Source of the DNA: Saksenaea vasiformis B4078
Taxonomy: Eukaryota; Mucoromycota; Mucoromycetes; Mucorales; Saksenaeaceae
Assembly: GCA_000697055.1 (NCBI GenBank)
Contig: JNDT01001795.1
Coordinates: forward strand, 1 to 45,135
DNA length: 45,135 nt
Direction: 5' to 3'
The position numbers and the translations under genes were made by a program. This document shows positions 4,280 through 45,135 of the stretch, in pieces; the first letter of the stretch is position 1, and each line of letters starts with the position of its first letter. Under the pieces are notes generated by a model, which saw only the letters and a program-made list of their open reading frames with translations, did not search any database and had not been told where the DNA came from.

Positions 4280-7200
4280 ATGGCGCCGACCACCTCTCCA
4301 GACGGTCTCGAAGAGAGTTTGGATCAGAAAGTGATTCGATTCGATGAGATCGAGCAACCTTCACATAATGACAATGGTGATAAGGCGTCCATTTCGCCAA
4401 AGTCTATTCGACGCCACCCTTCTGTGAAAGGCCATAATATTATTGCCTATCGAACCTTGTCCATCACTGTATCGGAAAGTCAAGCTGCAGGCACTGTGAA
4501 GGACAAGAAAAAGAAAAAGGGCGATTTAGCGGATGGTAATAATTGAAGGAAGAAGAAAGAGAGCAAGCAGATAGCATTAACATGGTCATTTAGATATCGC
4601 CAGCGCCAATTATCATAATCTCTCTCCTTTGGAATTATCACAACAGTACAATACCAGTCTTGAACGCGGTCTTGACAAGGAGCAAGCAGCAAAACGTGTA
4701 GCTCAGTATGGTAAAAATTCAATTTCTCCTCCTCCAAGCAACTGGGGAAGGAAGATCTTTGGCTACTTCTTTGGCGGGTTCTGTAGTCTTTTATGGTTTG
4801 CAAGTATTATTTGCTGGTAAGCCCCTCCTCCTCCTCCTCCTCCTCCTCCTCCTCCTCCTCCTCCTTCTTCTTCTTCATCTTCTTCTTTTCGTTTCTTTAT
4901 TAAGTGTGCATTTAAAAAAAATTAGGATTTCCTGGAAGCCTCTTGGTGAACCAAACCCTTCCGCGGTGAATTTGGCTCTCGCTGTGATTTTGATGTTTGT
5001 TGTCTTTCTACAAGCTTTCTTTAATGCCTGGCAAGATTGGTCCACCAGCCGTATCATGGACTCTATCCATAACATGCTTCCCACGCAAACCTTAGTACAA
5101 CGTGACAACACGACCATGACTATTGATGCTGCGCACCTGGTTCCTGGAGACATTGTTCACATTAAAATGGGTGACAAAATTCCCGCAGATCTGCGTCTGG
5201 TCAGTGTCAGCGATGACCTTAAATTCGACCGCTCCATTCTTACTGGTGAATCTGAGCCTATTCCTGGCACGGTGGAAGCAACGGATGCTAACGTGCTCGA
5301 AAGTCATAACGTGGCCATGATGGGCACACACTGTCTCAACGGTTCTGGTACTGGTGTTGTGGTGTCCATTGGTGACAACACATTGATGGGACGTATTGCA
5401 CGTCTTTCCTTGTCCGATCCCAATGCTCGAACAACACTTCAAGTTGAAATTCTGCGCTTTGTCATTATTATTGCTGTTCTCTCTATCAGTGTCGGTATTA
5501 TTTGTATTATTACCTGGGCAGCCTGGTTACGCGTCGACTATCCCAATTATCTTTCACTCTCCAACGCATTGATTGATGTTATCAGTGTGATCGTAGCATT
5601 TGTACCAGAAGGTAAAAAGATAAGGCATACACACGTGATGCTTATCTCCCTTTCTTTTTTTTCTCTGGAATAGGTATGCCTGTGGCTGTTACCTTGGTAA
5701 GTTTTTCTTTTCCTCGAGATTATTTTAAAACTAACGCCATTTCAAAAGAGTCTTACGATCACCGCTCATCGCATGGCTAAGCATAATGTGCTCTGCAAGG
5801 TTCTGACAACCGTGGAAACTTTGGGAAGCGTGAATGTGCTGTGTTCGGATAAGACAGGCACTCTTACGGAAAACAAAATGTTTGTATCAGATGCCGGTAT
5901 CCACGGTCAGGAGTTTGTTTTGGCTGCGTGTCGCGATGTCATTGTGAAGGATTCTGATAACAGCGTCTCCTCATTGGGCCACCAAGTTCGTCTTTTGCAA
6001 GCTGCGTCTGCTCTGTGCAATGGCTCCCGGTTCGACCCAGAAACCATGGACCTGGAGGTGCAACTCCGCAAGACCTTCGGTGATGCGACTGACTCCGCCA
6101 TTCTGCGCTTTGCTGAGAGCGTGAACCCTAACCTGACTGTCAAGGATCTTCGCGGCCAAGCCGAAAAAATCTTCGAAATTCCCTTCAATTCCAAAAACAA
6201 ATGGATGCTGACCGTTCACCGTCCCACCGACCAACTCTTGGCCGATACCATGTCCACACGTTCCACCACCGTTGGCCTCGACGACTGGGTTCTGATTTGC
6301 AAAGGTGCACCTGATTATCTGCTTGATCGTTGCTCGTCCGTCCTAATGCCCGACGGCTCGGAAGAACCTCTGACAGACAAGCGCCGGGAGGTTATCTGCG
6401 ATTTACAAACACGTTGGGCCCATAACGGCAAACGTGTGTTACTGCTTGCACGTCGTGTCATCAAATCCAATGAAACACCAGCCGGTGCTCATACAGGCAC
6501 CTCCAGCTTTGGTTCCTGGGCTACCAGAATGAACCAGGAGTTGACGGTGGTTGGTTTATTGGCTATTGTGGATCCCCCTCGTCCAGAAAGTGCGGAAACG
6601 GTAAAGACATGTCGGGAAGCCGGTATGCGCTTCTACATGGTGACAGGAGGTAAAAATAAAATAAAAACTTTTTTTTGGAAGTGTAAGATTTTGCGTAGCT
6701 AAATAGAGGGTGTGGTCTTTTTTTTTTTAGATTTCCCTGCAACAGCAGCTGCTATTGCACGCCAAATTGGTATTTTCTCAACGGAGCATCCCAAAACGAT
6801 CTTGGATTTGAAACCTGATTTGCCAAGCGACCAAGTCGTGCAGTACAATCGTCAAGACTTTGTTGAAAAAGAGATGGCTACGGGCAATTCGTCGAAAACA
6901 GCGCTCGATGAGCATGAGTCTAGTTCGTTGTTGTTATCTGGCTCGGATCTTATCACGTTGAACGATTCCATGTGGGAACAAGTGTGCCAGTTTCAGGAAA
7001 TTGTGTTTGCCCGTACTTCACCTGATCAGAAATTGCGCATTATCAAAGAATTCCAGAAGCGCGGTAATGTCGTGGCGATGACCGGTGATGGTGTCAACGA
7101 TGCTCCCTCGCTCAAGGCAGCAGATATTGGTGTTGCAATGGGTGGAGGAAGTGATGTGGCTATCGAAGCGGCCGATGTGATTCTGCTAGGAAAGTTCTCG

Positions 7201-7998
7201 AGTATTGTCGTTGCGGTTGAAAACGGTCGTATGGTGTTTGACAACCTGAAAAAGGTGATCTTGTACTTGCTACCTGCTGGTTCCTGGTCCGAGTTGTGGC
7301 CTGTCATGGTGAATATTTTCCTTGGTTCTCCTCAGACACTCTCTTCGTTCCAGATGATTGTGATTTGTGTGTTTACGGATCTGATGCCGTCGTTGGCCCT
7401 GATGATGGAAAAGCCAGAAGCTGGTCTTCTGAAACGTCCTCCACGTCGGCCCAAAGAAGATCGATTGGTGAACTTCAAGCTGCTTCTCCAGGCCTACGGC
7501 TTTATTGGATTGATGGAAATGTTGACCTCCATGTTCAACTTTTTCCTCTTCTTCTCCATGAACGGTATCCCCCCTTCAAAGGTGTTCCTTTCTTTCAGTT
7601 ACCTGACCGATCCTAGCGGCTACATGGGCAAGACCGCGGATGAGATCACAACCCTAGTCAACACGGCTCAGTCCATCTACTTTATCAACCTTGTTATTTG
7701 CCAATGGGGCAACGTTCTCTCCACGAGAACACGCCGCCTTTCTCTAACCCAGGCCAATCCTCTCTGGGGTCCTAACCGCAACCTGTACTTGTTCGGAGCA
7801 ATGCTTGGCTCTCTATGTATTGCCCTCATCATCATCTACGTCCCAGTCTTTAATATCTACCTCGGAACCTCACCAATCCCTATCAAATTCTGGTTTATTC
7901 CTTTTGGATGGGCTGCCATGATCATGGTTGCCGATGAACTTCGAAAGCTCATGGCAAGAACGTATCCAAGTAGTATCTTTGGAAGACTAGCCTGGTAA
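4280..7998 (+). CDS. P-type cation-transporting ATPase, Na,K-ATPase-like (type IIC) alpha subunit
   Basis: Six exons (4280-4535, 4594-4816, 4926-5611, 5674-5696, 5749-6649, 6731-7998) join in frame to about 1118 residues, typical for a P2 ATPase. The exon-4 microexon is only 23 nt. Visible motifs are the actuator loop TGESEP (about residue 266), transmembrane FVPEGMPVAVTL (exons 3-5 junction), phosphorylation site CSDKTGTLT (Asp about 430), MVTGDFPATA, and hinge TGDGVNDAPSLKAADIGVAMG (about 814). About ten hydrophobic segments fit the P2 fold. VPEG followed by an AKRMA-like stretch, VETLGS and the C-terminal end resemble Na,K/H,K-ATPases more than the fungal ENA (type IID) pumps. The enzyme should move Na+ and/or K+ across the plasma or an internal membrane using ATP; ion specificity cannot be read from the sequence. 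No beta-subunit gene is seen nearby. The first ATG in a clean frame was taken as start; the N-terminal 85 residues are hydrophilic and variable. Confidence 0.93.
4825..4882 (+). repeat. CTC/CTT microsatellite inside ATPase intron 2
   Basis: About 13 CTC/TCC triplets followed by TTC triplets fill the 5' half of the second ATPase intron (4817-4925). Read as protein it gives poly-leucine, which is why an uninterrupted frame seems to run through the intron. It is a simple-sequence expansion within non-coding DNA. Confidence 0.85.
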
Positions 7999-8524: not shown

Positions 8525-11500
8525 CTAATATACTTCGAGGACATATCTTTCTTTTTCCTTCCATTCTTCGATTAAAGCGGAAGCCTTTGCTTCATCGATG
8601 CCACCAAAGTTCTTGAGGCCATAGACCACAGCATCCTTGACGTCAGGGACTGGCCAAGTGGGACCACAGAGGTAGAAATGACCGTTCTTGTTGATCAGGT
8701 AATCGTGGAGCATTTCGGCGTCTTCCATCATCTTGTGTTGGATGTACACCTTTTGTTTCTGATCACGAGAGAACGCCAGACCCATATGAGAGAGCAGACC
8801 ATCGGCATGGTATGCTTCGAGTTCTTCGCCATAGAGGTACTCGTTGCTTCTGTTACGGGAACCAAAGTAGAGAACAACGGGACCAACTTCCTTGCCAGCA
8901 GCCTTGGCAATGGCACGTTCCTGGATAAAGGCGCGGAAAGGAGCCATACCTGTACCAAGACCAGCCATGATCACCGGTTGTGTGTCGAGAGGTGGCAGCT
9001 TCATCACCGAGGGCTTGATCGAGACGGTGACTTCCGCACCAGGGGCCAAGTTGGCAAGATAACGCGTGCACTGACCATAGCGCTTCTTGCCAGCAGCATT
9101 GTTCCATTCGACAGCGACGACCAGGAGATGGACCGAGTTGGCATGCATCTTTTGCGACGATGCAATCGAGTAATGGCGAGGTTTGATTGGCGTGATAATC
9201 TGTACCAGAGCTTCCAGTGGTGGTTTGGCCGAGGTAAATTCGCGCAACAGATCTTCATAGGTCACAGTATCATCCACACGCTTCTTGTATTCTTCCTTGC
9301 CTTCAGCGGACACCAAGTACAGCAGCTGTTCGCGTTCCTTGGGGTCGGTAGCATAAGTTGCCAACTTCTCGTAGAAGTTCTTGGAAGGACGGCCAAAGAT
9401 GTCGAGCGTTTGCGAGAACAATTGGAACACAGTGCGTGCTACCTTTCGATCGTTGTTCTTGACCAGAACGACATCATTTGCGCGGAGACCGTACCAGTCC
9501 AAGAAGTCTTGCACCTCTTGATAATCGTTGTGACCGTGTACACCCAAGGCATCACCGATTCCGTATTTCAGATTGGCATGGGTGGTGTCAAACTCAAGAT
9601 GGAACACGTTTCGGTCATAGGTGGTTGGTGTCAGTCGCTTGTTTTCGGTGAGTCGTACCACATGGGTTGTCTCATGCAAGTCGGGACGGATGGAAGCCTC
9701 CTTGCCATAGGCCTCGTTGAAGATGACATGCCAGGCTGCCTTGTGCCACTTGCCGGCCTCGGCGGTTCCCTGTTCGTCGTCCTCAAGCTCATCCACCGTC
9801 ACATCGTCTTCCTCCTCGTCCTCCTTGACAGCACGGTCGATGGGCACGCGTGGCAACGGTGTGTCGTTGACCTCGAGGATAGTCCAGGTTGGCAGCAGTT
9901 CGATGGCGGTAAGACCCTTGGCCACAGCCTCCACCAGTTCCTTGGTCAGGACACGCAGATCACGCTTGTCTTCGCCAACTTCGATTTCTTCATAAAGACT
10001 GGCCACACGATCAGCGATACTGGTTGCTGTCTTGGGCCGGGTCAATTGCAAGCAGGCGGCCTCCCACACAATGTGGCTCGACTTCTGATGCAGACCGAGT
10101 TCCTCAGCAATGCGAGCCCCGTCGATGGCGTATAGCTTGATACCCAGTTTGGTCAATGCCAGCTTGAACTCGTTGGTCAGATGTGCCTCAATCTCGTCGC
10201 CGTGGGTCCATGGTCCGTGCACCAAGACGGTTGCGTTCTTTTCTGCCAGCGCCAGTGTGTCGTATTCTTTGATGAGCGCTGTATGATGAATGCCGATGAA
10301 TTGTGCCTTGCTATGCTTGTTGTTTTGATGAATACTGATCTTGGTGTTCACCACAGCACCCCCAAGACGGTAGGCGTCACGGGTGGTCCTGGTCTCAATT
10401 GGAAGCGTAGGTGTTTGTACATGGAGAAGCTGGCTGATATGAGAAGCGGCCTTGGCAGAACCTTCTTTTTCAACATCCCAAAAGATGGCGCTCCAAGCAC
10501 CTTCTTCCTTTGCTTCTTCTTCCTGCTCCAATTGCTCAAGGAAGGACCCAGCTTGCAGATCGATGAATGTTTCAGTTTCAGCGTCCTTGACCAGCAGTGG
10601 AATGTGGCCTGCCTGGAGATGACCAAAGTCGCTTGCTTGTGCAGTGATCAACCGAGGACGAGCTTGGCGATCGAGAGAGAAGCGGATAGCGGCAGCGATA
10701 TCGAGATAGAGAGGACCGTTGAATGCAAAGAGACCGTCGCCTTCTTCCAACACCACAAGACGACGAGCGGATGTAGGCAAAGCGGCAACGAAGTCTGTTT
10801 CGGACCAGGGGCGATAGAGACGGACACTGAGAAGACCGACATTGGATTTGGCAGAAGCACGCACCACCGATGCGCGAAGGGAGGCCGTGCTTGCTTCCAA
10901 CGTGACCAGCACGGTTTCAGCCTGAGCGGCGCCGACATATTCGAACGGCTTGTAGTTAAATTGAGCAAGGAGCTTGGTAGCAATGGCATAGGCATCGGCA
11001 AACGCAAGCTTTCCTGGATGTGTGGCCTGGAACAGCTGCGAAAGATGATGGTAAGGAAGCAAACGGGCAGGCTGTGTTTCCTTTGTAGCGGTGACCCCAT
11101 CGAAGAAGTGAATGACTGGCAAACCCACTGCTCTTGCCAACACATGGGCCACCACGGCCAGATCATGCGATTCTTGCACACTGCTTGAAGACAAGAGAAG
11201 AGCACCAGTATTGCGAGCAGCCAAGACAGCATCGACATGAGAGTGAGCGACCAGATCTTGATCAACGGATTGAGCAGCAATATGGAAGACTACTGGTTGC
11301 CGTGCCAGTGCAAGTGCATGGATGTTTGGAATCATCGACAACAGAGCCTCAGAAGAAGCCAGAACCGTAGCCGTCTTGTTTTGATGTTGAGATAATGCAC
11401 CTTGAACAACTTGCAAGGCACCATCTCGGGTTTCCATCTCGATGACTTTGACCAACTGGCCTTGACTGTTGCGCACAGTTTGTTGGGCCCATTCAGAGAG

Positions 11501-11821
11501 ACCTTGACCAAGAGAGGAGGAGGAACCGGGATAGAGAAAAACCAAGTCGCTCAAAGCATAACTGACATAACCGATGGATTGATTGGCAGTGAGCAAGAGA
11601 CCTCCTTCGGCAAACAGGTCGATGAGTCGTGACTTGAGTAACAACGTTGATTCCTCGTCGACAATGGTAGTCTGACTACCGGTTGTTGAAGAAGCGGCAT
11701 CCGTTTCGACAGTATTTTCTGTGATGGCCCGATGATTTTGTGGTTCAGCGGCGGATGGTTCAGCGGCTTTCCCTTTAAATAGGGCTGCAACAAGGGCTGT
11801 AGAGGCTATCATGGCCGACAA
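8525..11821 (-). CDS. MET10: sulfite reductase [NADPH] flavoprotein subunit (alpha, Met10 type)
   Basis: An intronless frame of 1098 residues encodes the flavoprotein arm of assimilatory sulfite reductase. It passes electrons from NADPH through FAD to the hemoprotein subunit for the six-electron reduction of sulfite to sulfide (cysteine/methionine synthesis, cytosol). The N-terminal about 600 residues form a pyruvate:ferredoxin-oxidoreductase-like region, as in fungal Met10. An acidic linker (EDEEEDDVTVDELEDDEQ) lies at about residues 664-682. The C-terminal third is a ferredoxin-NADP-reductase-type module with the FAD motif RHYSIASSQ (about 881), the NADPH loop GLGTGMAPFRAF (about 950), YFGSRNRSNEYLYGEE, and the terminal FYLCGPTWPVPDVKDAV stretch. 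The last residues EWKEKERYVLEVY match the family's C-terminus. The length is slightly above the yeast protein. The catalytic hemoprotein partner (Met5) is not in the window. The ATG at 11821 is the first in frame and is preceded by a pyrimidine-rich leader on this strand. Confidence 0.95.
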   Translation of the reverse strand: MSAMIASTALVAALFKGKAAEPSAAEPQNHRAITENTVETDAASSTTGSQTTIVDEESTLLLKSRLIDLFAEGGLLLTANQSIGYVSYALSDLVFLYPGSSSSLGQGLSEWAQQTVRNSQGQLVKVIEMETRDGALQVVQGALSQHQNKTATVLASSEALLSMIPNIHALALARQPVVFHIAAQSVDQDLVAHSHVDAVLAARNTGALLLSSSSVQESHDLAVVAHVLARAVGLPVIHFFDGVTATKETQPARLLPYHHLSQLFQATHPGKLAFADAYAIATKLLAQFNYKPFEYVGAAQAETVLVTLEASTASLRASVVRASAKSNVGLLSVRLYRPWSETDFVAALPTSARRLVVLEEGDGLFAFNGPLYLDIAAAIRFSLDRQARPRLITAQASDFGHLQAGHIPLLVKDAETETFIDLQAGSFLEQLEQEEEAKEEGAWSAIFWDVEKEGSAKAASHISQLLHVQTPTLPIETRTTRDAYRLGGAVVNTKISIHQNNKHSKAQFIGIHHTALIKEYDTLALAEKNATVLVHGPWTHGDEIEAHLTNEFKLALTKLGIKLYAIDGARIAEELGLHQKSSHIVWEAACLQLTRPKTATSIADRVASLYEEIEVGEDKRDLRVLTKELVEAVAKGLTAIELLPTWTILEVNDTPLPRVPIDRAVKEDEEEDDVTVDELEDDEQGTAEAGKWHKAAWHVIFNEAYGKEASIRPDLHETTHVVRLTENKRLTPTTYDRNVFHLEFDTTHANLKYGIGDALGVHGHNDYQEVQDFLDWYGLRANDVVLVKNNDRKVARTVFQLFSQTLDIFGRPSKNFYEKLATYATDPKEREQLLYLVSAEGKEEYKKRVDDTVTYEDLLREFTSAKPPLEALVQIITPIKPRHYSIASSQKMHANSVHLLVVAVEWNNAAGKKRYGQCTRYLANLAPGAEVTVSIKPSVMKLPPLDTQPVIMAGLGTGMAPFRAFIQERAIAKAAGKEVGPVVLYFGSRNRSNEYLYGEELEAYHADGLLSHMGLAFSRDQKQKVYIQHKMMEDAEMLHDYLINKNGHFYLCGPTWPVPDVKDAVVYGLKNFGGIDEAKASALIEEWKEKERYVLEVY

Positions 11822-12619
11822 ATGAGAGGAAAAAAAAAAGAGGAAAGACGTTTGATGATAAGATGGTTAGATTGGGATGGGGTTGTCGTTTATAATGATT
11901 GAATTTTCGTGCCAGCACGCCATCGATCAATCATGGTCCATTCAGATCCTATGGAAATGGCGCAATTTTGTGGTCGAATGGACCCAACTCTCTCTCTCCA
12001 CAGTTGTGTGTCTTTGAAGTGCGTTGAGCGCCGCTTGAAATTTTTGATGGGTAAAATGAAAAAAAAAAGTCGTCTGCTTTGATCACCCATCTGAGGAAGG
12101 AACAGACAGACAGCCAGCCAGCCAGCCATACTTAGACCATGATGAGATAGGGTTTTTTTTTGTAGTTGAAGCAGCAGGTAAGCAGGATTTGCGTAAACGG
12201 TACAAGACAAGAAGACTTCTTTTGGCTTCAGATTATCCAAGTACAAGTCTCTTTTGTTACCAATCATTCTACAGCAAAATACTCACAAAGTTTTCTTTGC
12301 TATGGAGTTAGTCAGCAGGCAAAAAGTGACATGATCTGCTTTATCCATGCATTATTGATTCTCTTCCTTTTCTTTGTCCACTTGTCTAACCAAAGACGAA
12401 AAAAAAAAGAAGTCTATCCCTACCATCATTCATGTCTCATAGCGTAAATAAAAGGTAGTTCTCGGTATTGTCTCTCTTTTTATATCAAAAGGAAGAGTTA
12501 GTCGTTGTAGGATCGACGGTCAATCTCATTTTTCATTTTTCATGTTTTCTACCTCCGGTGCGGACGATTTTACCTGAGAGAGTTGTCGCAGTCCTTTTTT
12601 TGTTATTTGACCCAAGATC
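11822..12619. other. divergent promoter region between MET10 and the 12.6-kb gene
   Basis: About 0.8 kb between two start codons pointing away from each other. It holds T- and A-runs, a GACA/CAGC short tandem tract (about 12105-12128), and pyrimidine-rich stretches next to both starts. I saw no CACGTG (Cbf1-type) site that would mark sulfur control of MET10. No gene is supported. Confidence 0.5.
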
Positions 12620-16629: not shown

Positions 16630-18232
16630 CTATACTGGACTATAACGGAACTGAGAACATTGTGCGATCAAATGGAAAAATTGCTTTGATATCGATGTTG
16701 TATGGATCAATAAACTGATCATCATGACGGCTGCTGTCAGTGACCACATTGTCTGTGCACCATACACCTCATAGACATAGCCGCCTAACGTGGATCCTAA
16801 CCCCCCTCCAATCCCGTTGAACGTCATATTCAACAATCCTTGAGCACTACTTCTTCGCCCTCTGACAGCAATCGCATCTGTATGCACTACCGCAGCACTC
16901 CAAATCAAAGAAAATGCAACACCTACAAATAAAATAAAAAAATAAAAAGGTGATGGGTTATCAAGTCAAACAAGGAAGAAGAAGAAGAAGAAGGAAAAAA
17001 GTCATACCGTGCAGTAGTTGGGTGCCCACCGCTAACCAGGCACCATTGTCGAAATTCATGGACACAACATAAGCTAAACACCGATAAAGAGTAATCAGTT
17101 GTGCCACCGTAAGCATCGAATGAGCACCCAGCGACCGGTAAATCTGATGCAATAAAAGTTTAAAAATCTTTTGACTTGGTCTTCCCCGGACTTGCCTCTT
17201 TCGAAAAAAAGAAACAAATCACTTCGGTACTGCTGCCAAGTGGCCCTAAAAGACCAATCAAGGCTGGTGTGGCTCCCAGATTCTCCCGAACAAAGAGAAA
17301 CAAAAAGGCAAGAATCAAGTTGATGGAGAAGCCCAGGAGGACCATGACTGTCAAAAACCGCAGTGTTTCCCCAGATTGCAAAAATTCCCACATTGACCCA
17401 GGTGCCTCTCGTTCCGCCCTTTCCGTGGCTCTTTGTTCTCTTTCTTCCTCTTCCGATGATGCTGGAAGAGCACGGTACGGCGTAAAACTCATACATGCGG
17501 TGGTCAGAATGCATCCTAATGCACATGCTGCAAAAACACCAAACAGGGCATAGGCTGTGCCCAGTTCTTCCATAAAAAATCCCGTCAAAAAGATAGAAAT
17601 GCCAAAGCCAATCGGGCACCCCACCTTCTGTCGGCCATATAATTCCCTCTGCTCACCCAACACCATCAAGGTCACACTGTCAACCATGGCAGTAATACAC
17701 GGATAACCAAAGAAGGCGTATCCGAAACACCCTAGACACACTAGCGTCACCACAGCCCATTCTGCTTCGGCCAACCGTGGTATCAACCCGATAAACAAGA
17801 CAGACTATGTTTTGTTGTTGTTGTTGTGGTTGTTGAAATGAACATGCCAGTTCTTTCATTCATTGTCTTACCAAAAGAGCAATGCTCATGTTCACCATGA
17901 AGATCTTCCTGTATTGCCGTGTCTGGTCTGCCAGAGAAGTCCAAAACGGAAACGCAACACATGATACCAATGGTGCTAAACCCGAAAAAAAAAAAACAAA
18001 ACAAAAAACGTTTCTTTTTTTGAGTCGTCGTCGTCCTATTTTTTTTTCTTTTTTGCATCACTGTATCGACGGACGTACTGATTGCATAGATAAATCCAAT
18101 CTTATTTGGTCCCAGACCTAGTACTGTTTTGTAAAACGTTGGAAGAAACAACTGCGCTGATCCGAGACATCCGATGGCGAAGATATTGAGCAATTTTAGC
18201 CCAAGAAAAAGTGGCACATCTTTTACTGCCAT
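16630..18232 (-). CDS. major facilitator superfamily transporter (MFS_1-like)
   Basis: Five exons on the minus strand (18079-18232, 17872-17975, 17196-17804, 17008-17143, 16630-16922) join in frame to about 431 residues with roughly twelve hydrophobic segments. The start reads MAVKDVPLFLGLKLLN, and the first loop carries SLADQTRQYRK, the MFS loop 2-3 motif. A long acidic/charged central loop (SSEEEEREQRATERAERE) separates the two six-helix halves. FFFSKEIYRSLGAH in the second half resembles the equivalent loop in the MFS_1-like family. The substrate cannot be inferred. Intron 3 (17144-17195) uses a GC-AG pair (GCAAGT donor), needed to keep the second-half loop in frame. An in-frame upstream ATG at 18373 exists, but the extra sequence is poly-T-derived and improbable, so 18232 was chosen. 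Confidence 0.88.
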
Positions 18233-24145: not shown

Positions 24146-25987
24146 ATGACATTCATTAGGTGCAGTTTCGCTTCTGGGAGAGACACTTTACACTTATGGC
24201 AAATAGGACATGAAGATACTTGCAAGCAAAATATGACGTGAGGTGTCAACAACCTATGATACGGGGGAAAAAAAAGAATGATATAGTTGTGGCACGCGAA
24301 GTTCCCGGCACTAGCGTTTCCGAAATCATGTCCAGGTGCAAGCCCCTCTTTAAGAGTTCGGGACATCGACTTTTGAAACCTGAAGATCTGAACTCGATTG
24401 ACACGTGTGGAGAGACTTAAAATAAGAGCAGGATGTCTTAGTGTATAGGATCTAGGTAGATAATGCATTGTTTGAACCCTATAGAATCACCACTAGTTGT
24501 TGCCAACTTGCATCAAGCCATAGGTACAGCGATACAGCCAGACATGCTCTTTCTACAAGGCGAGGAATGCACCAAGTAAATAGGGCGATCGTATGATTCA
24601 TGAACCGTTCGCCTATCGCCGTATCAGGACAGATAATGCGTTATCATAGATAGATCTTTGAGATTTGACCCAATACTGTTTATTGAACAGATTTTCACGC
24701 TAATCTATATAAATTTTGCGCCCATGAAGAATCGCTTTTACGCTAAGAAAAGAGTCAAGGATGTGTTCGTTAATACATAGGTTGGCAACAAATTCATACA
24801 CTACTTAACATCAATGCGGTCCCTCGATAGACGCAAAATCATATAGACAGCATAAAATTCCATTCATGGTTAGCAAATGGAAATAATGCTTGGATGTCAT
24901 TTTACTTACTCCCGGAGGGAAATTCCACGAAATCATGGCGGCCGCACTTCGCACCGTAATGAGTGGGAGTGGGAGAATGGAGAAGATTAGCACTGAAAGT
25001 GTCCAATTGTAACGCACTGCAGAGGACTTGAAGCGATACCACGTCTAGCGGTCTATTATACAAGATGAGTGATGCTGAGTGCGACAACAGTTAGGTTACT
25101 TAAGTGATGGGTCATAAACGCCACCACAGCCGAGAAGGTTCGGGACAGAGGTCATACAGGCTAAACAAATACATCAAAAGACATGAGTGACCCTGGATGC
25201 GTATCCCATTGAAAGTACATACCGGGGATGCAAGATGAACAGAGTCAAAGAAAAAAAAAGAAAGAAAGGAAGGAAGGGTTCATGCGTGCCTTTAAGTACG
25301 GTCACTCTACGCGTTCGGATTGGTGCTTTGGGGAACCTATTACAATGGACCAGCGCAATGCATCTTTGATTTAGAAGTGAAAGGTATCTGCTTCTCTGCG
25401 CAAAGATACGCTGCCTCCTCACCGCAGGTTTGAGTTGGGTGTCGACGCAAAGTAATATTTGAATCATGCAAAATGTTTATTCAAAATCCAATATTATGCG
25501 TCGCCAGCGGACTTGGAGATGATCAATTTAACCTCCTTCGTGACCGAAGTACAGACCACTCGAATGAATAAAGTTTCACAAGATGAGTATTCTCGCCATT
25601 CCAAGCATAGCAGCTTGACGTCGGATGGTTATCGCTATGGCTGCCTATACAATGGTTACGATGCTCTAGCCACGCGCGGTCCATAGTGTCCTTTTCATCA
25701 ATCGAATCCTATTAAAACAGGAAAAGCGAAAAAAGAATTGGGAGAATTGTTCAAATCCTTTCCAAATGCCAAAACCCCATATTTGGAAAACTTTGACGTC
25801 ATTTACAAGAACAGTGGGTTTTTGCGCTACTCTCACATAAGCGTTTCTTCGCATCGCGCATTTAGCTATGCAACTTCCAAACGTACCATCAGGTGCTGGT
25901 AGCTGAACATGGAACTGTTTCTCACGTACTCTTTTGTTGTCGTAGGAAGGCAACGTTCCTGGTATTCAAACTGACGAATCACCACCA
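24146..25987. other. unassigned DNA upstream of the deubiquitinase gene
   Basis: Several medium frames occur on both strands, for example plus 25459-25686 and minus 25666-25953. None shows a recognised domain, and the larger ones overlap each other. A purine run lies at about 25242-25277. The stretch just before 25988 may hold the deubiquitinase promoter; a possible acceptor-like TAG immediately upstream leaves room for a 5' UTR intron. Confidence 0.5.
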
Positions 25988-35794: not shown

Positions 35795-38487
35795 ATGCTT
35801 GACCAGATCCACAAGACAATCATGGAATTCCTCGACGACATGCTGACCAACGAGCAGCAAGTGCTTGCGGCTGCCTTTGTGGTGCTTGTCACTGTAGCTG
35901 TCTACGTCTTTACAGCAAACTCAGGTTGGTAAAAACCACTAAATTTAAGCTTCTTGTTTCTTTGTTACTAACACAAACCAGGAAAGAAAACAGCGACTAT
36001 GCAGGTGAAGGAAACCAGTACAAGATCCATTAAGAAAAAGAAGACCATGACTGGCAAGACGGAAGCGTCTCCGCGATCTGTGAAAAAACGCGACGTTACA
36101 CCTTCAACAACTACTACCAAAGACTCAACCGAGACAACCGAGATCAACAAAGTCTCTATTACAGAGGATGTCCATCATACCGAATCCATTCATACCGAGA
36201 CAACACAGCAGCAGTCCACGGATGAAAAGGAAGCAACCGGATCGGACCAGAAGAAGGACCTGACACGCGATGTCACACAAGATACCCAACAACCAGACGG
36301 GGTCCTTGTGGAACCACTGAAAACCACAGAGACTGTAGAAATTGTAGAAACCGTGGAGGAACTGAAAGTGGAAGAGCATTCAGAACGTATCGAATGTGTG
36401 GAAATTGTTAAAGCCGTTGAAATCGAGAAAAAAGAAATGCCATTGGAGATGGTAGAGTTGGCAGAACAAGAGAAGGTTGCGGAGCCTGTGACACCTACAG
36501 AGCCCAAGACGCCAGCAACAATCGCTGAACCTGCGGGATCTGTCGAGACCAAACAGGAAATCACAGCATCTGTGACGCCTACAGAACCTGTGTTGAGCAC
36601 TGAAACTACCAGTTCCATTGAACATATTGAGAGTGCAAGATCGGTAGAGCCAGCGGAGATTGTTGAGTCCGTCAAGACTGAGGAGCCCATCAAGACCGAG
36701 CAACCCGTTAAAACCGAACTCCTTAAGGCTGAGGAACCTGTCCAAGTTGAGGAACCTACTAGCACGGAGGAACCCGCCAAGACCGAGAAGCCAGTAGAAT
36801 CTGAGGAACCGGCTAAAACTGAAGAACCAGTAAAGGTCGAGGAACAAGTGAAGATCGAGGAACCCGTTAAGGCTGAGGAGCCCGTTAAGTCTGAGGAACC
36901 TGCTAAGATTGAGGAACCCGTTAAGACTGAGGAACCCGTTAAGACTGAAGAACCAGTGAAGGTCGAGGAACCAGTGAAGGCCGAGGAACCAGTGAAGGTC
37001 GAGGAACCAGTGAAGGTCGAGGAATCAGTGAAGGTTGAGGAACCAGTGAAGGTCGAGGAACCAGTGAAGGTTGAGGAACCAGTGAAGGTCGAGGAACCAG
37101 TGAAGGTCGAGGAACCAGCAACGGCTGACAAAACAGCGAAGGTTGAAGAATCCGTTGAGACTGAGAAATCCGTTAAGATCGAGGAATCAGTTAAGACTGA
37201 AGAGACTTCTACTGTTGAGGAACACGCCAAGGTCGCTGAACCTGTCGAACGCCATATGCCCATCGAAGCTGAGAAACCCTCTGAAAACGAAAAGGACATC
37301 GAAGCCGAGAAGACTGTCGAACAGACCGAGCTGGCGGGTAAAACCACAATTACCGTGGAAGAGAGATCTATCGATAAGGGTAAAGATGAGAAGGCTGACA
37401 AGAAGGTTGTGTCTTCCGTTGAGAACGAAGTTTTGGCTGGTGTGTGCGGTGCGGCTGCTGCCACCGCTGTTATCTCGACTATTGCTGAAATGGTCAACGA
37501 GACTGCAATCAAGGAGGTGACACCTGTAGAAGACGTAGAGAAGGAGACAGTTTCAGAGGAGGTTGAGTCATCAGCATCCATTGCTACTGGAAATGACGGA
37601 GAGAAGGATAGCGATGCGATTATCACAGAAAATATCGCAATCAGCATGTCTTCGATTGATGTCAAGACTCACGTGCAAGCGGAGGCAACTACGGAGGTCT
37701 CTGAGGACGACCTCTGTCATACAAGCAAGGAAGCGAAGCCATTGTTGGATAGTTTGGAACAGTCTGCGTGCGAGATCTCAGTTGCTCAGGACTCTGAAAA
37801 CCAAGCTAAGACTTTGCTTGAACGAGCCGCCACTTGTGCAAACGGGAAAATGGAATCAAGCTCAGAAGAAGATCCTGCCTCTACCACAAAGGACTATACT
37901 CATACGGAAGCGGTAGAGCTGATCCCATCAAAGACGTCTTCCTATTCCTCTCACAAGAGCGACGCTTCAGGTGTTGTAACACCCCCGCAACGAACCGTGT
38001 TGACAAATGGGTATGGATGGAGTAAGCAACAGCAACAGGCTGGATTACCCATGCTACAGTACGGAATGCCGTGGCCTAGTCCGATCTATCAGCCCCAGTC
38101 TATCAACCAATATATGCAAGACACAATGGTTCCCATCACTGCAGATTCAAACCATCGAACTCGGTATCGTCTCTCACGCGCTGATAAAATTGACCAGCAA
38201 CGTCAATCCTATATTCCTCCCATGAAATCTCGCTGCGAATACTGGCCACACTGCACCAACAAGCATTGTAAATTCTGGCATCCTTTCAAAGAGTGCCGGT
38301 AAGTTATACCTGATCATTCCCTTGAGTTAACTGACAGAATTGACATAGTGCCGGAGATGAGTGTACCTTTGGTAAGCGATGTATGTTTTTGCATGCGAAA
38401 GATTTGGAAGAACCTCGTCAAAAGCGTAACAGTCGTCCACCTCAAAATACCCAACGACCTCGCTCAGAGATTGCAGAATCAGCTTAG
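35795..38487 (+). CDS. membrane-anchored EPVK-repeat protein with two C-terminal CCCH zinc fingers
   Basis: Three exons (35795-35924, 35982-38298, 38349-38487) join to about 861 residues. The N-terminus MLDQIHKTIMEFLDDML is followed by one hydrophobic helix (about 24-42, VLAAAFVVLVTVAVYVF), a probable signal anchor. Then comes a basic stretch (SIKKKKT), and about 600 acidic residues with a VEEPVK-type hexapeptide repeat densest at about 292-423. The C-terminus holds two CCCH fingers: C-x5-C-x4-C-x3-H in SRCEYWPHCTNKHCKFWH (about 793-811) and C-x5-C-x5-C-x3-H in ECRAGDECTFGKRCMFLH. The spacing matches the Nab2/ZC3H14-type fingers that bind poly(A) RNA. The second intron interrupts the join between the fingers, so a one-exon reading would lose the second finger. 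Inferred role: RNA binding at an endomembrane surface. No named family is recognised for the whole protein. Confidence 0.85.
36724..37118 (+). repeat. 18-bp coding minisatellite (EEPVKV hexapeptide repeats)
   Basis: About twenty imperfect copies of an 18-base unit (consensus GAGGAACCAGTGAAGGTC) lie in frame in the CCCH gene. The 3' units (36950-37110) are nearly identical and suggest recent unequal exchange. On the opposite strand they create long spurious open frames. Confidence 0.9.
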
Positions 38488-39627
38488 TTATTACATTCAC
38501 GATTGTCTTTCATTCAATGTAACATTAATTACCCTTCCCACTCCCTTTCATGTAATTACACACAAACAGCATTTAGTGTAGATACGCACTACATTTGATT
38601 AAAGATTTACTCCCTATCTTAACTTCGCGGCCTTGTGAGCAAACTGGTCTCTGCAATTTGTTGCAATGTTATTCATACTGGCTATGACTAATCTGCGTCT
38701 CATCCATTAAGTGTACGACCATTGAAGTTATAACACTCCTCTACGTGCATTCGCATACCTAAAAGTGCTGTAAATCCTTACAGAAAATTGCCCACGTAGT
38801 CTGTCTTTTACTCTAGGGCACTAATCAGTCTGAAATCTGCTACTCAGAAAAGCACGTTCTCGTGTCGGCGTTAATGCCCAACTTGCCTTTACAACCGGTC
38901 CTCGAAGCTTGTCGTTGGACTGTTTACAATTTGATCGTTGTTTGCCTGACGTTTGAGTATTTCTCGTGCTGCAAATAGGCCTGAACTCAAAGCACTGGTC
39001 ATAGACTGCCCGATCTTTTTTATATAACAGGCGCTCGGTTAGAAGATACCCATTCTGTACAAATTATATTCATCAGGGGGATATTATTCAAGTGGATAAG
39101 AGCGTGGTCAAATTATCAAGTCTGTTCTACCAACATTATCCTTGAGTATGATCTAAGTTTTATAAGTGGCTTCGTGAACCAGGTGTCTATTGTATTTGAT
39201 CCCTTTCTAGGGCAAACTTGATTCGCTCTACGGTCGTCGCCTCAAACCAGGGGGATAACACAATTTTCGTAACCGCTTCCAAAGTACTAGATCTCAAAAT
39301 TTTATCCAGACTCACAGCATACTGAACTTAGTGTCGATCCTTTAATTACGATACGTATGTGTTAAAACTTCAATCCATGTTCAAAATCGTCGCGACAGCC
39401 AGAATTAAACCGAAAAAATTCCCCTAGCGGTTTTCATCATCACTGTAAGTTGAACTAGCAAATCATGGTAATACATCGTTCGTTCATATTCACGTCGGCA
39501 AGCCTTTGTTCAAATCGCCAATCATAATATTCATGCGTGAGCCTTTTAAGTTCTGAAAAAATCTTTATTTTGCTCCTCCACCTGACCGCACCAAAGAAAC
39601 ATTAAGGCTAGATATCTTTTTTTTTTC
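38488..39627. other. intergenic region without a recognised gene
   Basis: This 1.1-kb AT-rich spacer between converging genes (CCCH protein, + and eL6, -) has no frame of note. Confidence 0.6.
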
Positions 39628-40435
39628 TTAGAACTTCATAGCGTGGGGGAATTGACCCTTGCTCAAGCTGAAGGTGGAAGCCAGGTACTGACGGAGGAAG
39701 GGAGTCTTGACAACAACTTCAAGAAGAGCCTTGTCAACGGCCTTTTGGTCGGCGGCCTTGGACTCGGGGAAAGCCTTCTTCTTCTGTTGAAAAAAAAAGA
39801 GTGTTAGTTGCTGTGCTCATCCTCACAATAAGACATACTTGTTCTTCACCAAGGAATTCTTCCTTCTTGGCAGCAACGGCCTTCTTGAAGTAGGCATCGT
39901 TGAACTTGGCATCAAGCTATTATACAGTCAGATTTATCAACAGGATTTCACGTAAGCTTACCTTAACAGTGGACAAGTCAATCTTGACGGAGGTAGCAAT
40001 GACATAGGCTTGGTTCACGCGTCTCAAGGGAACACCGTTGACCTTGAAGGGACCAGTGACGAGCAAAAGACCGCTGTCGAGCTGCTTCAAGACAATGACG
40101 CGCTTGCCCTGGTAACGGCCAGCCAACAAGATGACAACGGTACCGGGAGTGATGGAAGCGCGGACGGTAGGAGCCTTGGCGCTCTTGCGAGACACCTTGG
40201 GCTTGGGCACATCCTCAGCGGGGTAGAAGCGGGGAGCCTTCTCAGCGGGGATGACACGCTTGGCACCGTTCTTGGCACCCTTGACGTCCTTTGTCTTGTC
40301 AGCGACAACCTGCTTAGCGGGAGCAGCAACAGCCTTCTTCTGGCGCTTGTGCAAGGCCTTCTTGGCGTAGACGGTGGAGCGGCTGTAACGAGAGACACCG
40401 GGAACAAGGAAGCTGTTTCTGGGTGCGTGAGGCAT
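39628..40435 (-). CDS. RPL6: 60S ribosomal protein eL6
   Basis: Three exons (39962-40435, 39839-39916, 39628-39783) give 235 residues. The N-terminus is basic ([19 protein letters not shown]). The conserved core runs [22 protein letters not shown] ... [22 protein letters not shown], followed by VKIDLSTVK and an Ala/Lys-rich C-terminal half ending FPHAMKF. This is the large-subunit eL6 (L6e) protein of the cytosolic ribosome, an rRNA-binding component. Codon choice is strongly biased (for example GGC, AAG), as expected of a highly expressed gene. Both introns are 45-55 nt with standard borders. The start is the first ATG and matches the family N-terminus. TTTTAG six bases before the ATG resembles an acceptor, so a 5' UTR intron is possible. 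Confidence 0.95.
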
Positions 40436-41480
40436 TCTAGCTAAAATGGAAAAAAAAAGACATTAATCATTTTGCTCAACAACTGTCTTCCTCTCTTTCT
40501 CCCTCTCTCATAATGCTCCCTTCACGAAATCCGGCGTCCCGCCCCCTTTCATCCACAATGTCCATTCCACAATCACTTTTTAAGGTGAATCATCAATCGC
40601 GCATCCAACCCATGGCTACGATTCGAGATTATGGTTGTCTAAAATGTCCACGGCAAATCAGATTCATCCGTGGGTGTTCCGGTATCGCACGTTCATTCAC
40701 CCTTCGATATATAGTGGTGTGGATGGAAATTTTCGTCTTTTCCGTCGTATCTAGCCGGGGATCGTCCATTTGATATCATCACCCATCCCCACCCATCCTC
40801 TACGCCTCTCCCCATAAATCATCCGTCCCAGGTATGGCCATTACCTATGCAATGGGAAAAGAGGGCACGAATAATATGTCTGAGGGAGAGTTAAATTTCG
40901 GTCCGGTTTCGCTACACCCACCCCGCAAATGACGTCAACAGAACTAGCCAATCATTTAATTTTCTTACCTTCCGGACGCCGTGACGTTCCGGTTCCATCC
41001 CGAAAACAGCAAAACCGGGGCCCGACTGATGGGCTGGAAGACGGGTCCCTACCGCCTTACCACTCGTAGTGGATATGGGAGAACTGAGTCACAGCCGGAC
41101 CTGTAGCTTTTCATCCATTGTCTGATCATCGCTGCAAGTTCCAGGAAGTCCCTACTCTGTCGAATAGACATTGCTGAAAACTCCAAGAAACCCCTGCTCT
41201 GCTCAGTCGATCTACAAGAAAAATTTAGTATTTTCTCTTTTTTCTCTTTTACACGTGAATCAACACTTACGAAAAAGCCGTCTGGCTGAGACTGACCACT
41301 TGCAGAGACCCAACAAACCTGGGGGACCAACTTTATTGTAAGCCTCTGTAAGCGGTGTAAAAGAAGCCTAAAAAGATAGCTGTAGTAAATTGTTTCTTGG
41401 CAAAAAAAAAAAAAAAGAATCGTTACATTCCTGTCAAGTTGTCGTTGGATGCATGAATAAACAACCCAGGGTCACTTGAA
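40436..41480. other. promoter side of the eL6 gene
   Basis: CT-rich DNA directly upstream of eL6, then a GC-richer stretch (about 40500-41050) without a convincing coding frame. A small minus-strand frame (41049-41330) contains a short internal repeat (RGFLEFSAMSIRQSRDFLELAAMIRQ) and is of uncertain meaning. Confidence 0.5.
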
Positions 41481-41489
41481 AAGAAGTAC

Positions 41490-41708
41490 GTGTTCTTGTG
41501 CCACGTGGAAGAGAGTGAAGTACTCTATTTTTTCAAGTTGGCAGGAGTTGATTACAAACATAAACAGCTTACCAAGCTTGACACCATCCTTAAATCGCCT
41601 TTTTTGCGGAAACGTCGCCATCAGAAGATGCGCTTTTTATTGTACCTTTGTATATTCTGTATCAGAAAACGATGCCGAAACTGCTGCACACTTACCGATA
41701 AAGCATAA
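41490..41708 (+). other. short lysine/cysteine-rich reading frame upstream of the Fanzor-like gene
   Basis: A 72-codon frame ends RKRCRNCCTLTDKA and contains YFFKLAGVDYKHKQLTKLD. The C-terminal cysteines are suggestive but not enough for a zinc-ribbon call. It may be a scrap of a decayed gene; function unknown. Confidence 0.25.
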
Positions 41709-41781
41709 AATAAAATAAGATATGGAACGACAGAAAGAAAAAGAGAAGTGACGACAATCGAATGGAACAAAAAGAAAATCT

Positions 41782-42155
41782 TTAACGCGTCACCGTCCTG
41801 ATCTGTTCACACGGGATGTACTCAAATCGTAGATCTGTATCCCTTGTCGAATCAACTACTTCACCAAAGTCGTAAACTTCGCGTCTGGGATGCGCCCGCG
41901 CACCCTGTGTAACCGAACCCTCTTCCAAAAGATAATGGTGTTGGAATATTCGGAACTCTTGTCCTCGAAAGCATCCATTTTCAGATCCAGCGGTCACATA
42001 AAGACATTCTGAAGTGCTAAGGTTTCAAGCAGACCAATTTCATACAGATAAGCATGGCTTGGTACTGCTCTGAACCTGACAGCCGTGCTCATATAACTTC
42101 TGTTGTAAACGACAAACACGCAAGGGCCGTCATGACCTTGTGTATGTATTGGCTC
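41782..42155 (-). pseudogene. unrecognised coding fragment, frameshifted
   Basis: On the minus strand one frame (from about 42155) reads HTQGHDGPCVFVVYNRSYM ... SHAYLYEIGLLETLALQN. A second frame begins in the same place, LYVTAGSENGCFRGQEFRIFQ, continues HHYLLEEGSV and VYDFGEVVDSTRDTDLRFEY, and ends at a stop at 41782. Both look like real protein, but no GT-AG pair joined them in phase, so a one-base shift is likely. The family is not recognised. It lies next to, and opposite in direction from, the Fanzor-like gene. Confidence 0.4.
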
Positions 42156-42636
42156 GTTCTTTAATGATGATTAAGGTAGCGACGCAAATTGTATAATTTC
42201 TCTTCCTCTCAAAGGTGTTCACGTGCAGAGATAGATCCACAATCACAGGATTATTACTTGTCGACGTTCCTGAGAGCACCCTCAATAAGCATTTCCTTGG
42301 TAAGCACCCTGCCTTACAAGATCGATACTCCAGCGGTTGCTTTTATAAAATACAAATCACAGAAAATTGGCCCCATCAATCGCCCCAGATCTTTTATGTA
42401 ATCTAAATAGTACGTAAGACTTGAGATATTTGGTGTGGTTTTTATCAGTCAGGCAGATAGGAATCCTTTGAGACTCTTGTTTATTATAAGTAAAAAGGGA
42501 GGGAAAAAGCAAGGGTTGTCTGTTATACTGCTCTTAACTAACTGATGGTGTTATAATACACTTAGACGGTAATTACGACAAGAGTCAATTAAGTTGTCCC
42601 AGTTTTCCTGTTTGATGTGTAAAAATTGAATTTTTG

Positions 42637-45135
42637 ATGTACAGTGATATGAAGGACCGCTACCAAGACGGGAGAAAACAACGAATTTTCTTAAAAGAAA
42701 AGATCTCCTTATTCTTGATCATTGTGATGGAGCCACAGATTCTCAGAGCAGCCTTGCTATCGCGTAACGAAGGTCAATGTACCTTTATCGGCAGAAAAGA
42801 AAAGCTCAGTACACTGCTTCGGGACGATTATAAATATCTCCGGGTATGCACTGCTGCTCATAATTCGATTACCAATGATTATTAGGAGCATATGCGTGTC
42901 GCGGCAGAAGCATTCTCCGTCGCAAGACGTGATGCTCTTAATTTGGTGAACATCCACATTCGAAGATGGATAGAATCTGAGTTCAACACTTTCCCCCCAA
43001 TCGGCAGGGAAGTCTTCTGGTCTGTCTCCCTGAAGATGGTTCTGATTCCTCAAAACCAAGGAAGTATCATTCGTTATGTGAGTATCTATGCCGCAATAGC
43101 ATGTTGTAGTTCATGATGCATAATAGCCACGGGACCGGTGGGTAGACGATCTCCGTAGGACGTACAATGAATGCTTCATTCCAACAAGGCACCACGATTC
43201 GCCGGGACAGGGTGAATTAAAGATATACAACAAAAGATATGATGTCTCATGCAATAATGGAATAGCACTCACTGAAATCCTTCGGGTTCAGGCCAGAGTG
43301 TACGCGCCCACTGCTGCAGCAAGTCAGTATAATCTCTCAAGAAAATCTAATATTTATAAGTTTAACGGAAATAATCAGACGCTAGACAACATCTAACTTC
43401 GAATTTCACTGGCAATATGCGCAACTTATGGAAGCATTTTTTTTATGGATGCGAGATGAACTTTCGGTGGAACTTCCTCAAGGTCCTGTTACCCTTGGTA
43501 AGCACATTATGATAGTCACCATACAGCTGATCCACTCCGTGAAAAAAACAAATGGCAATAGCGAACATGGTTATCAGAAGCGTCGGGCAGCATACCGCGC
43601 CGGAGGATATAAACATTCTACAGCCGCATTTTGCTCAAGAAATCGTGCGCCAGTTCTATCAGTGAGTCCTAGAAAGGGACGACTGATACAGCAATGATAA
43701 CGCATAAATAAATATACAGGGCCTTGATGATAGAATTTGAATCGTTGTTTGGAGAACGCACACTTCAACAAATCGAAGAAGAAGAAGACGAAGATCTCCT
43801 GTCAAGCTTCGTGCTCTTCTCAGCTTGGTTGTTAGCGAGGCAAGAAATATTGGGTGGACAAGTGTGGTCGTTGATGCCACTACCTGGGCATCAAATCGGT
43901 AAACATAATACCAAACAAAATATATAATCTAATTCTAACACCTACGTGCAATTCAGTCTACGTACACATAGATACAGAAGCGTTGTATTATGTTCTAAGG
44001 GATGCCAGAAACGAGGGCAACCCACTTCCTGACGAGATCGCAGTAAGGCCTACGTTTTGTTTGAAGATACTCATATAACGTTAGTCCGTCATGGGCACAA
44101 AATCGATCTTCATGGATCATTATCGTGGGGCGCATCGCAAAGAGCGACTATGGGAAACTATCTTCAATATTGACAGTGTTGAACCTAGAAGGCGTCGGCA
44201 TCAAAGTAACATAGCCTCGTTTGTAAATATACTAAAAGCATGTAGATCTCTATACTGTAAATCAACAGATGCGCCCAGTGGAATTTGCGAACACAATTCA
44301 GACGGACGGAGCAATGGTGAGCGTCCGCTTCTACATAAGAAGGACAGGTATGTTGGTCTGTGCACAGGTCTTATAATTATAACCCAATATTTGGCATTAC
44401 AGAACAATATCCATCATCTCAAAGAGAATTCCGCCTCCTTAAAAGAAATGAGGACCTTTCTAACAGAGAGAGAGGGATAACCCATCTGAAAAAGGAACCA
44501 GTAGGATTCACTCCGGATGAACTGCAGGAATGTAGGATCGTGGGGATCGATCCCGGTACGTTCTTAACATCCGACCACTGTCATTTGACAATTTGTACTA
44601 GGGATCCGGTCTTTAGTAACGACGGTTGATACATCAGAAGGTCTTCAAAACCGATATCACCGAGAAGCGCATACCTTCTCCCAAACAAACACTGATTACC
44701 AGTAATGCTGCGGTTGCATCTGTCATAGATATTAATTAGCACTGGGATAGAATTCGTTCAATGTTTCGATGGGCACAACAGCTAGAGAAGAAGCACAGAG
44801 GACGTAGCGGCATTCAATCCGTATATGATAACTTGAGCACGTATCCAGGAAGAGTTCTGACTGCTCAAGCATTCAAAGATCATCTGCTGGTGTTCCACAG
44901 AAATCACCCAAAGTAAGGGGCTTATATGGCTTTGCTAGTGCTAACTGGTCCTACAGACTATTTAACTTCAGCAGGAGATACAGGCACAGAGAGACGAGAG
45001 GCACACTTTTCTCTGCACGCCAGTCGGCAATGAGCACGATAGCAAATAAGCTATCGGGAGCCTACCCGTCGGTGCCACTGGTATTCTTCGATAGACTTTA
45101 ATGAATGCATGGTACTTACTAGTGCTACTGTAGCC
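42637..45135 (+). CDS. Fanzor-like protein (eukaryotic TnpB homologue, RNA-guided nuclease), 3' end beyond window
   Basis: About fifteen exons join in frame at GT-AG sites with no stop: 42637-42843, 42886-43077, 43127-43211, 43266-43297, 43386-43497, 43562-43661, 43720-43898, 43957-44042, 44085-44222, 44269-44347, 44403-44555, 44602-44701, 44751-44912, 44957-45080, 45123 onward. More than 550 residues are present. An N-terminal helical region (KLSTLLRDDYKYLREHMRV, RDRWVDDLRRTY) is followed by SLMPLPGHQIVYVHIDTEALYYV. Next come the strand motif FANTIQTDGAMVSVRF (about residue 382-397) and RuvC-I IVGIDPG then IRSLVTTVD (Asp about 452). A basic helix follows (FRWAQQLEKKHRGRSGIQ), then FNFSRRYRHR. 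This order (helical lobe, TDG strand, GIDPG) is that of fungal Fanzors. The last RuvC residues and zinc ribbon lie beyond the window. MEPQIL at 42727 is an alternative start. The intron 43212-43265 is in-frame, and the junction 43298-43385 is the least certain. Guide RNA and transposon ends were not identified. Confidence 0.78.

Follow-up and report, generated by a model that had tools for sequence, protein, structure and literature searches.

At the right edge of the window, by which we mean the whole of contig C377 (45,135 bp), lie 14 short exons separated by 13 GT-AG introns of 42-64 nt, which together span positions 42727-45080 of the forward strand (Table 1). The exons were joined at frame-keeping GT-AG sites, and the missing 3' part of the gene was modeled from a sister copy on contig C182 (locus L015) of the same genome, a 38.7-Mb assembly of 666 contigs that we searched. 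The window copy corresponds to the 5' three quarters of the gene, and the window ends two bases into exon 15. The first-pass annotation had placed here a spliced gene in short exons, invisible as a single reading frame, and both the exon model and the sister copies bear this out. It had counted about fifteen exons of 32-192 nt; short they are, but there are 14 of 61-192 nt, plus the two nucleotides of exon 15. Similarly, the TDG, GIDPG followed by IRSLVTTVD, and RRYRHR motifs that it listed are all encoded, but the FNFS that it read in front of the last is intron 13 in our model; the "VFFDRL" near the window end is intron 14 sequence. The ATG at 42727 is likely the start codon. In-frame ATGs also exist upstream of it in the window, and we prefer 42727 because its counterpart in C182 is, by eye, the first in-frame ATG, the upstream ATG in that copy being out of frame and reaching a stop.

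Table 1. The gene and its element in the window, with further copies in the same genome (query, 42637-45135).
Feature	Position or extent	Strand	Basis
Left terminal-repeat core GGTTTCGCTACAC (C182: GGGTTTTGCTACACGCACCCC)	40905..40917	+	motif and end comparison
Element 5' part, upstream of gene	40919..42726	+	homology to C182, C315
Exon 1 (likely start ATG)	42727..42843	+	homology to C182, spliced alignment
Exon 2	42886..43077	+	C182-based model
Exon 3	43127..43211	+	C182-based model, spliced alignment
Exon 4	43266..43326	+	C182-based model, spliced alignment
Exon 5, one base fewer than C182 in T-run 43437-43444 (frame break)	43386..43497	+	C182 comparison
Exon 6	43562..43661	+	C182-based model, spliced alignment
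Exon 7	43720..43898	+	C182-based model, spliced alignment
Exon 8	43957..44042	+	C182-based model, spliced alignment
Exon 9	44085..44222	+	C182-based model, spliced alignment
Exon 10, TDG motif (putative Fanzor1 WED-domain mark)	44269..44347	+	model; meaning of TDG from available text of PMC10711439
Exon 11, ends in GIDP/G (RuvC-I aspartate)	44403..44555	+	model, motif scan
Exon 12, G/IRSLVTTVDT	44602..44701	+	C182-based model, spliced alignment
Exon 13	44751..44912	+	C182-based model, spliced alignment
Exon 14, basic stretch RRYRHR	44972..45080	+	C182-based model, spliced alignment
Exon 15, initial two bases, then contig end	45134..45135	+	place taken from C182
C182 (L015)	90% over query 4-2499; runs past window's end		same-genome search
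C501	92% over final 896 nt of query		same-genome search
C315	first 132 nt of query		same-genome search
C185	80%, last 168 nt of query		same-genome search
C138, contig beginning at exon 17	90%		later search with 3' part

Elsewhere in the window, Pfam identifies a P-type cation ATPase (4702-7998, +), a flavoprotein with POR_N and FAD_binding_1 domains (8525-11866, -), and an MFS transporter fragment (17160-17804, -). Internal direct repeats, 68-75% alike, occupy 36657-37253 inside a 776-aa frame that has no Pfam match, and a ribosomal protein L6e frame lies at 39920-40462 (-), the element described below starting ~440 bp from its upstream end.

With 42637-45135 as the query, the genome yielded four other places, on C182, C501, C315, and C185. 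The C182 gene is complete, with 19 exons, 18 introns of 42-60 nt, and a frame of 755 aa that stays open up to its terminal TAA, and it supplies the parts that lie beyond the window: an alternative RuvC-II glutamate, two C-x2-C pairs, and a RuvC-III NRD. When the C182 protein was used as the query of a spliced protein-to-DNA aligner (on C182 itself it recovered the 18 introns unbroken, a consistency check only), all 13 window introns agreed with those of C182 in place and phase, which upholds the earlier claim of in-phase GT-AG junctions; C182 intron 14 in the aligned span comes after exon 14 and is thus outside the last aligned window exon. The same introns recur in more distant relatives. In L056-L063, respectively, 12, 14, 11, 12, 7, 15, 12, and 13 of the 18 C182 introns (of 12 for L060, which is cut short by its contig) are found in the same phase within two residues, and 18, 18, 16, 16, 10, 17, 13, and 16 within six residues in any phase. 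These relatives display apparent stops, frame breaks, or protein gaps (gaps only in L056), a tally that pools real lesions with aligner faults at an identity of about 40%.

As for coding constraint, the window and C182 copies differ at 159 of 1673 exonic and 69 of 665 intronic sites, with one gap column in exons (in exon 5) versus 18 in introns, and their proteins are 88.9% identical. Over 557 codons, dS is 0.252 and dN 0.059, giving a dN/dS of 0.235 (0.170-0.337 in 500 bootstraps). From exon 10 to exon 19, C182 and C501 differ at 97 of 1197 exonic sites, gap columns being absent, and at 32 of 476 intronic sites, with four gap columns; the 398 codons are free of premature stops, and dN/dS is 0.229. 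Both ratios indicate that the reading frame has been selected, as had been suspected. On the other side, the raw synonymous difference between the window and C182 (21%) is twice the intron difference (10%), and the element 5' part differs by 12%. Constraint on the introns or gene conversion might perhaps account for this excess; the near-identity of exons 10, 13, and 14 (0, 3, and 1 mismatches) would fit the latter.

The window copy has a single lesion over the 557 codons compared with C182, one missing base in a run of eight Ts (43437-43444), which breaks the frame in exon 5. Its supposed freedom from stops therefore does not survive at the conserved splice sites; nor do we find support for calling the copy intact, given this break and its truncation at the contig end, or recent, given an intron difference of ~10% from C182. 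With splice sites chosen freely, the gene stretch does contain a stop-free path of 1776 exonic nt with 12 introns, and the earlier reader probably followed one of these freely spliced paths. However, offsets 1 and 2 yield open chains as well (1770 and 1728 nt), despite the frame break in the conserved model, so an open chain alone says little. In a chance control that accepted any end-to-end stop-free chain with introns of 38-65 nt and exons no shorter than 30 nt, six of the 200 dinucleotide shuffles were open, none reaching 1776 nt, and the reverse strand of the gene stretch gave no open chain at any of three offsets. Among 40 other window stretches (20 positions on both strands, best of three offsets, possibly including ordinary genes), 11 were open and 7 as long as 1776 nt. 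Stop-freeness alone is weak evidence, and the sister copies are strong evidence.

These controls bear directly on the possibility that the locus is ordinary decayed transposon debris, its open frame a chance product of free splicing. The permissive search indeed opens some shuffles, over a quarter of the other stretches, and two further offsets of the gene itself, and most aligned relatives have apparent breaks, but chance does not explain why intron places recur across copies at ~40% protein identity, why C182 and C501 differ by indels in introns only, or why dN/dS is near 0.23. The sister copies in the main refute this explanation, and we give it almost no credence. An intact window copy is a different matter: the lone lesion sits in a homopolymer, where the missing base could be an assembly error, the remaining gene could continue beyond the contig end, and the dN/dS of 0.235 would suit a working gene. 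Set against this is the assembly as it stands, one base short of C182 at the T-run. C138, which starts at exon 17, was not accepted as the continuation, its right flank (GTGCGTGCA) differing by eye from the window left flank (ATTTCGGTC). We regard an intact copy as rather unlikely, if well worth keeping in mind; the window copy is probably a recently broken member of the family, truncated by the contig end.

What family this is can be read from the motifs. In the window, TDG falls in exon 10 and DPG straddles exons 11 and 12; RuvC-II, the zinc ribbon, and RuvC-III are unreadable there because the gene runs to the contig end. These motifs, which the first-pass annotation had proposed to seek beyond that end, are found shortly past the corresponding point in C182 and C501, the sister copies. 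The C182 protein has TDG at 369, DPG at 433, and E630 six residues before C637-x2-C640, followed by LC708EEC and by WNRD with D724, that is, a C4 zinc ribbon and then a RuvC-III RD (CSRC...LCEEC...WNRD), from which two sequences depart, L062, whose model has no second C-x2-C, and P0001, with C-x3-C. Relatives that extend far enough likewise have DPG, TDG, the glutamate, and RD. DPG, TDG, and the RuvC acidic positions D433, E630, and D724 (C182 numbering) are invariant in five aligned sequences. The alternative RuvC-II glutamate before the first C-x2-C is present in C182 (EYMTSKACSRC) and in 10 of 12 other sequences, the window copy and the partial L060 ending before it. In the available text of Yoon and colleagues (PMC10711439), Fanzors are described with DPG and a glutamate that precedes the zinc finger by six residues, and Fanzor1 with a TDG in the WED domain; the TDG of C182 and the window would be this Fanzor1 mark, judging from the sequence.

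Published patterns capture the family unevenly. An older Fanzor signature, D-X(125,275)-[TS][TS]xx-C4-X(5,50)-RD (PMC3627910, available text), coded here with up to 90 residues permitted within the C4 finger, matched 7 of 13 sequences; on reading, the six misses are four partial sequences (the window copy, L060, P0002, and P0003), L062 without its second C-x2-C, and P0001 with its C-x3-C. The pattern DPGx(120-160)ExxxxxxCxxCx(12,18)CxxCx(4,8)D, which in the available text of PMC10711439 is a search pattern and not a definition of Fanzors, matched 0 of 13, four of these being partial and unable to match; spacing is the reason, the corresponding C182 distances being 194 and 67. The HMM search of the joined protein that had also been proposed passed only weakly: run on the C182 protein, PF07282 scored 19.1 bits (E 0.0015), below its cut-off of 26.3 bits, which is a detection threshold and not a definition of Fanzors. 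P0001 also stays below it (21.9 bits), and all five aligned members match at E ≤0.1 (best 1.1e-4).

Neither the C182 protein nor the family profile has a sequence match in the PDB, and an AlphaFold prediction of P0001 with P0002 and P0003 reached a mean pLDDT of 32, so that no fold supports the assignment. Homology to Fanzor/TnpB is instead supported by a profile bridge. The family alignment (A1) aligns from DPG to NRD, with hhalign (97.4%, E 1.1e-11), to A2, which is built from fragments of same-genome proteins that are PF07282-positive, three in all (L003, L007, and L008; two near-identical copies are combined in its first row), and A2 in turn matches chains of TnpB, Cas12f, and SpuFz1 (8gkh, E 1.4e-4). 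The Fanzor-type identity claimed at first reading is thus upheld by the motif set in the sister copies and by this link to PF07282-positive proteins. Taking these results together with the element described below, we conclude with high, if not complete, confidence that this apparently mucoralean fungus carries a divergent Fanzor1-type gene of 19 exons and ~755 aa within a MuDR/Mutator-like DNA transposon.

The zinc ribbon is distinctive. The two C-x2-C pairs are separated by 67 residues in C182 and by 62-70 across the eleven sequences covering the region. Within this insertion, C654, C673, and C687 (C182 numbering) are invariant in the five aligned sequences, and cysteines at the C673 and C687 positions are, by eye, also present in P0002 and P0003. 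These three cysteines could perhaps form a second zinc site, and the insertion would account for the failure of both PF07282 and the x(12,18) pattern to find the family.

The family is abundant in this genome. Peptides from exons 1/2 match at 86 places and those from exons 11/12/14 at 109, together clustering into 107 loci, and for 48 of the 86 exon 1/2 matches a downstream exon also matches, 0.5-4.5 kb away in the same orientation. The zinc-ribbon exons gave at least 137 exon matches at no fewer than 110 loci (150 of 191 candidates scored), and PF07282 itself gave at least 137 matches (150 of 388 candidates scored). Among the PF07282 matches listed, none has a same-strand exon match of the 107 loci within 5 kb. 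Adding the zinc-ribbon matches produced one coincidence among those listed, at C584:65945, which is sub-threshold for PF07282, and one listed match lies 4.8 kb from a zinc-ribbon match on C382. Both the overlap and the counts may be understated, because only 150 of the 388 and 150 of the 191 candidates were scored. About a hundred same-genome relatives escape the standard family search.

The gene is carried by a mobile element. Homology among copies starts at window 40919, C182 matching over 40919-45135 at 88% and C315 over 40919-42768 at 92%. The C182 element, 6069 bp long (36040-42108), starts with GGGTTTTGCTACACGCACCCC and finishes with GTGCGCGTAGCCAAACCC; it has terminal inverted repeats, and the 9-bp target duplication CTCAGGGTC flanks it on either side. 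Paired ends with a target duplication come from this one element, and the window has only a left end. C138 also has a right end. In a C425 element (L065) the gene is absent, and the left end and part of the right-end region are retained; we found no right terminal repeat there. No transposase family was recognized in the seven C182 upstream ORFs scanned of the 16 listed (≥50 aa), where two sub-threshold matches were to unrelated families, or in the window ORF at 41049-41471. The element is MuDR-like and non-autonomous, and we do not class it as a MuDR element since it is without a recognized transposase. MULE transposase (PF10551) matches elsewhere in the genome number 48. On C276, C421, C624, and C540, such a match precedes a same-strand exon-2 match of the wider family by 1489-1554 nt, where chance alone would give about 1.07 pairs at distances of up to 5 kb; these four loci are likely copies of one arrangement and possibly autonomous relatives. 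PF07282-positive zinc ribbons are also found ~0.6 kb from MULE matches, on the opposite strand, at L001 (C531) and L004 (C599). In the available text of Bao and Jurka 2013 (PMC3627910), MuDR-like Fanzor1 elements with 9-bp target duplications and without transposase are described from Rhizopus, Phycomyces, and Mucor. Selection on the frame, and the ~440 bp between the element start and the L6e frame, might instead suggest a domesticated host gene at the window locus. Such a gene would hardly be multicopy, bounded in C182 by terminal repeats and a target duplication, and broken in the window, and we consider domestication extremely improbable.

At their right ends, the elements of L056-L059, L061, and L063 end alike ~100-130 nt past the coding end, with flanks that differ right after. 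Most of the five relatives' right ends that we folded have a terminal hairpin (GGGCT...AGCC), a candidate end of a guide-RNA scaffold; as it gains no support from fold z-scores of 0.22 to -1.63, we treat it as a lead only. The C182 right end is no more stably folded than its shuffled versions (z -0.30), and the 3' stretch at L015 5200-5345 has a z of -1.58. L015 had a single Rfam match, which was sub-threshold and is put down to chance. Within the 3' part of the C182 element (L015 about 5121-5963) there is a repeat of ~840 bp, matched at ~40 scored places in the genome, which may have displaced an older right end. A ~840-bp repeat copy also occurs in the window at 24673-25495 (81% to C185:33947-34746), similar in size and sharing at least one end with the repeat in L015.

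The function of Fanzors is given in the available text of PMC10432273 as RNA-guided DNA cleavage, possibly aiding the spread of the element. By analogy with the family, the protein would bind a guide RNA that its own element produces from the right end and cut DNA matching the element flank, for example an empty site, and repair from the copy-bearing chromosome would then keep or multiply the element. Mobilization would fall to a MuDR transposase acting in trans, perhaps in cis in some relatives. The protein could alternatively be a nuclease-derived regulator that binds under guide direction and silences the transposase or host sites rather than cutting them. That no transposase was recognized in the element would be in keeping with such a role, but all three RuvC acidic positions (D433, E630, and D724) are invariant in the aligned sequences, and we find a regulator improbable.

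A broader proposal concerns the family as a whole, namely that it is a large, overlooked mucoralean Fanzor1 clade with a zinc-ribbon insertion and perhaps a second zinc site, missed by PF07282, the published pattern, and single-frame reading owing to the insertion and the introns, so that Fanzor numbers are understated. We offer this tentatively, at slightly less than even chances. If functional, the family would add to Fanzor1 a group of distinct structure, of which one 19-exon copy at least is complete. It also illustrates that a standard profile can overlook an entire clade. The same genome holds ~107-110 family loci besides at least 137 PF07282 matches and 48 MULE transposase matches and, again if the family is functional, would suit asking what RNA-guided nucleases do for DNA transposons.

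A literature search for the C182-type family found it in no title or start of an abstract, most subscription papers and all supplements lying outside that search. In the protein database, the C182 protein found one protein (P0001, 34% over 61%), the family profile found zero, and P0001 found three including itself, the best 7992 candidates by shared words being scored. These proteins, P0001, P0002 (Radiomyces spectabilis), and P0003 (Apophysomyces sp. BC1015), belong to the same family and all have the long zinc-ribbon spacing; at 416, 287, and 232 aa they are probably partial gene models, uncharacterized and without a family name. Their hosts are the grounds on which this fungus is tentatively called mucoralean. 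The A2 proteins of the same genome (L003, L007, and L008), although they align with the family from DPG to NRD (hhalign E 1.1e-11), have in contrast a short zinc ribbon and score above the PF07282 cut-off. Compared by description with ROr-4, PBl-3, and MCi-4 (PMC3627910, available text), the C182 element is alike in its Fanzor1 gene, terminal inverted repeats, 9-bp target duplication, lack of a recognized transposase of its own, and fungal hosts of seemingly the same broad group, whereas the C182 gene documents 18 introns and a long zinc-ribbon insertion. With the characterized SpuFz1, GtFz1, and PpFz1, the family shares the DPG of RuvC-I, the alternative glutamate before C-x2-C, the zinc ribbon, and the RuvC-III aspartate (PMC10711439, available text), as well as a eukaryotic transposon setting (PMC10432273 and PMC11423790, available text); unlike them, it has no sequence match to any PDB chain. 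SpuFz1 is described in the available text of the latter two papers as a single ORF, in contrast to the 19 exons of the C182 gene.
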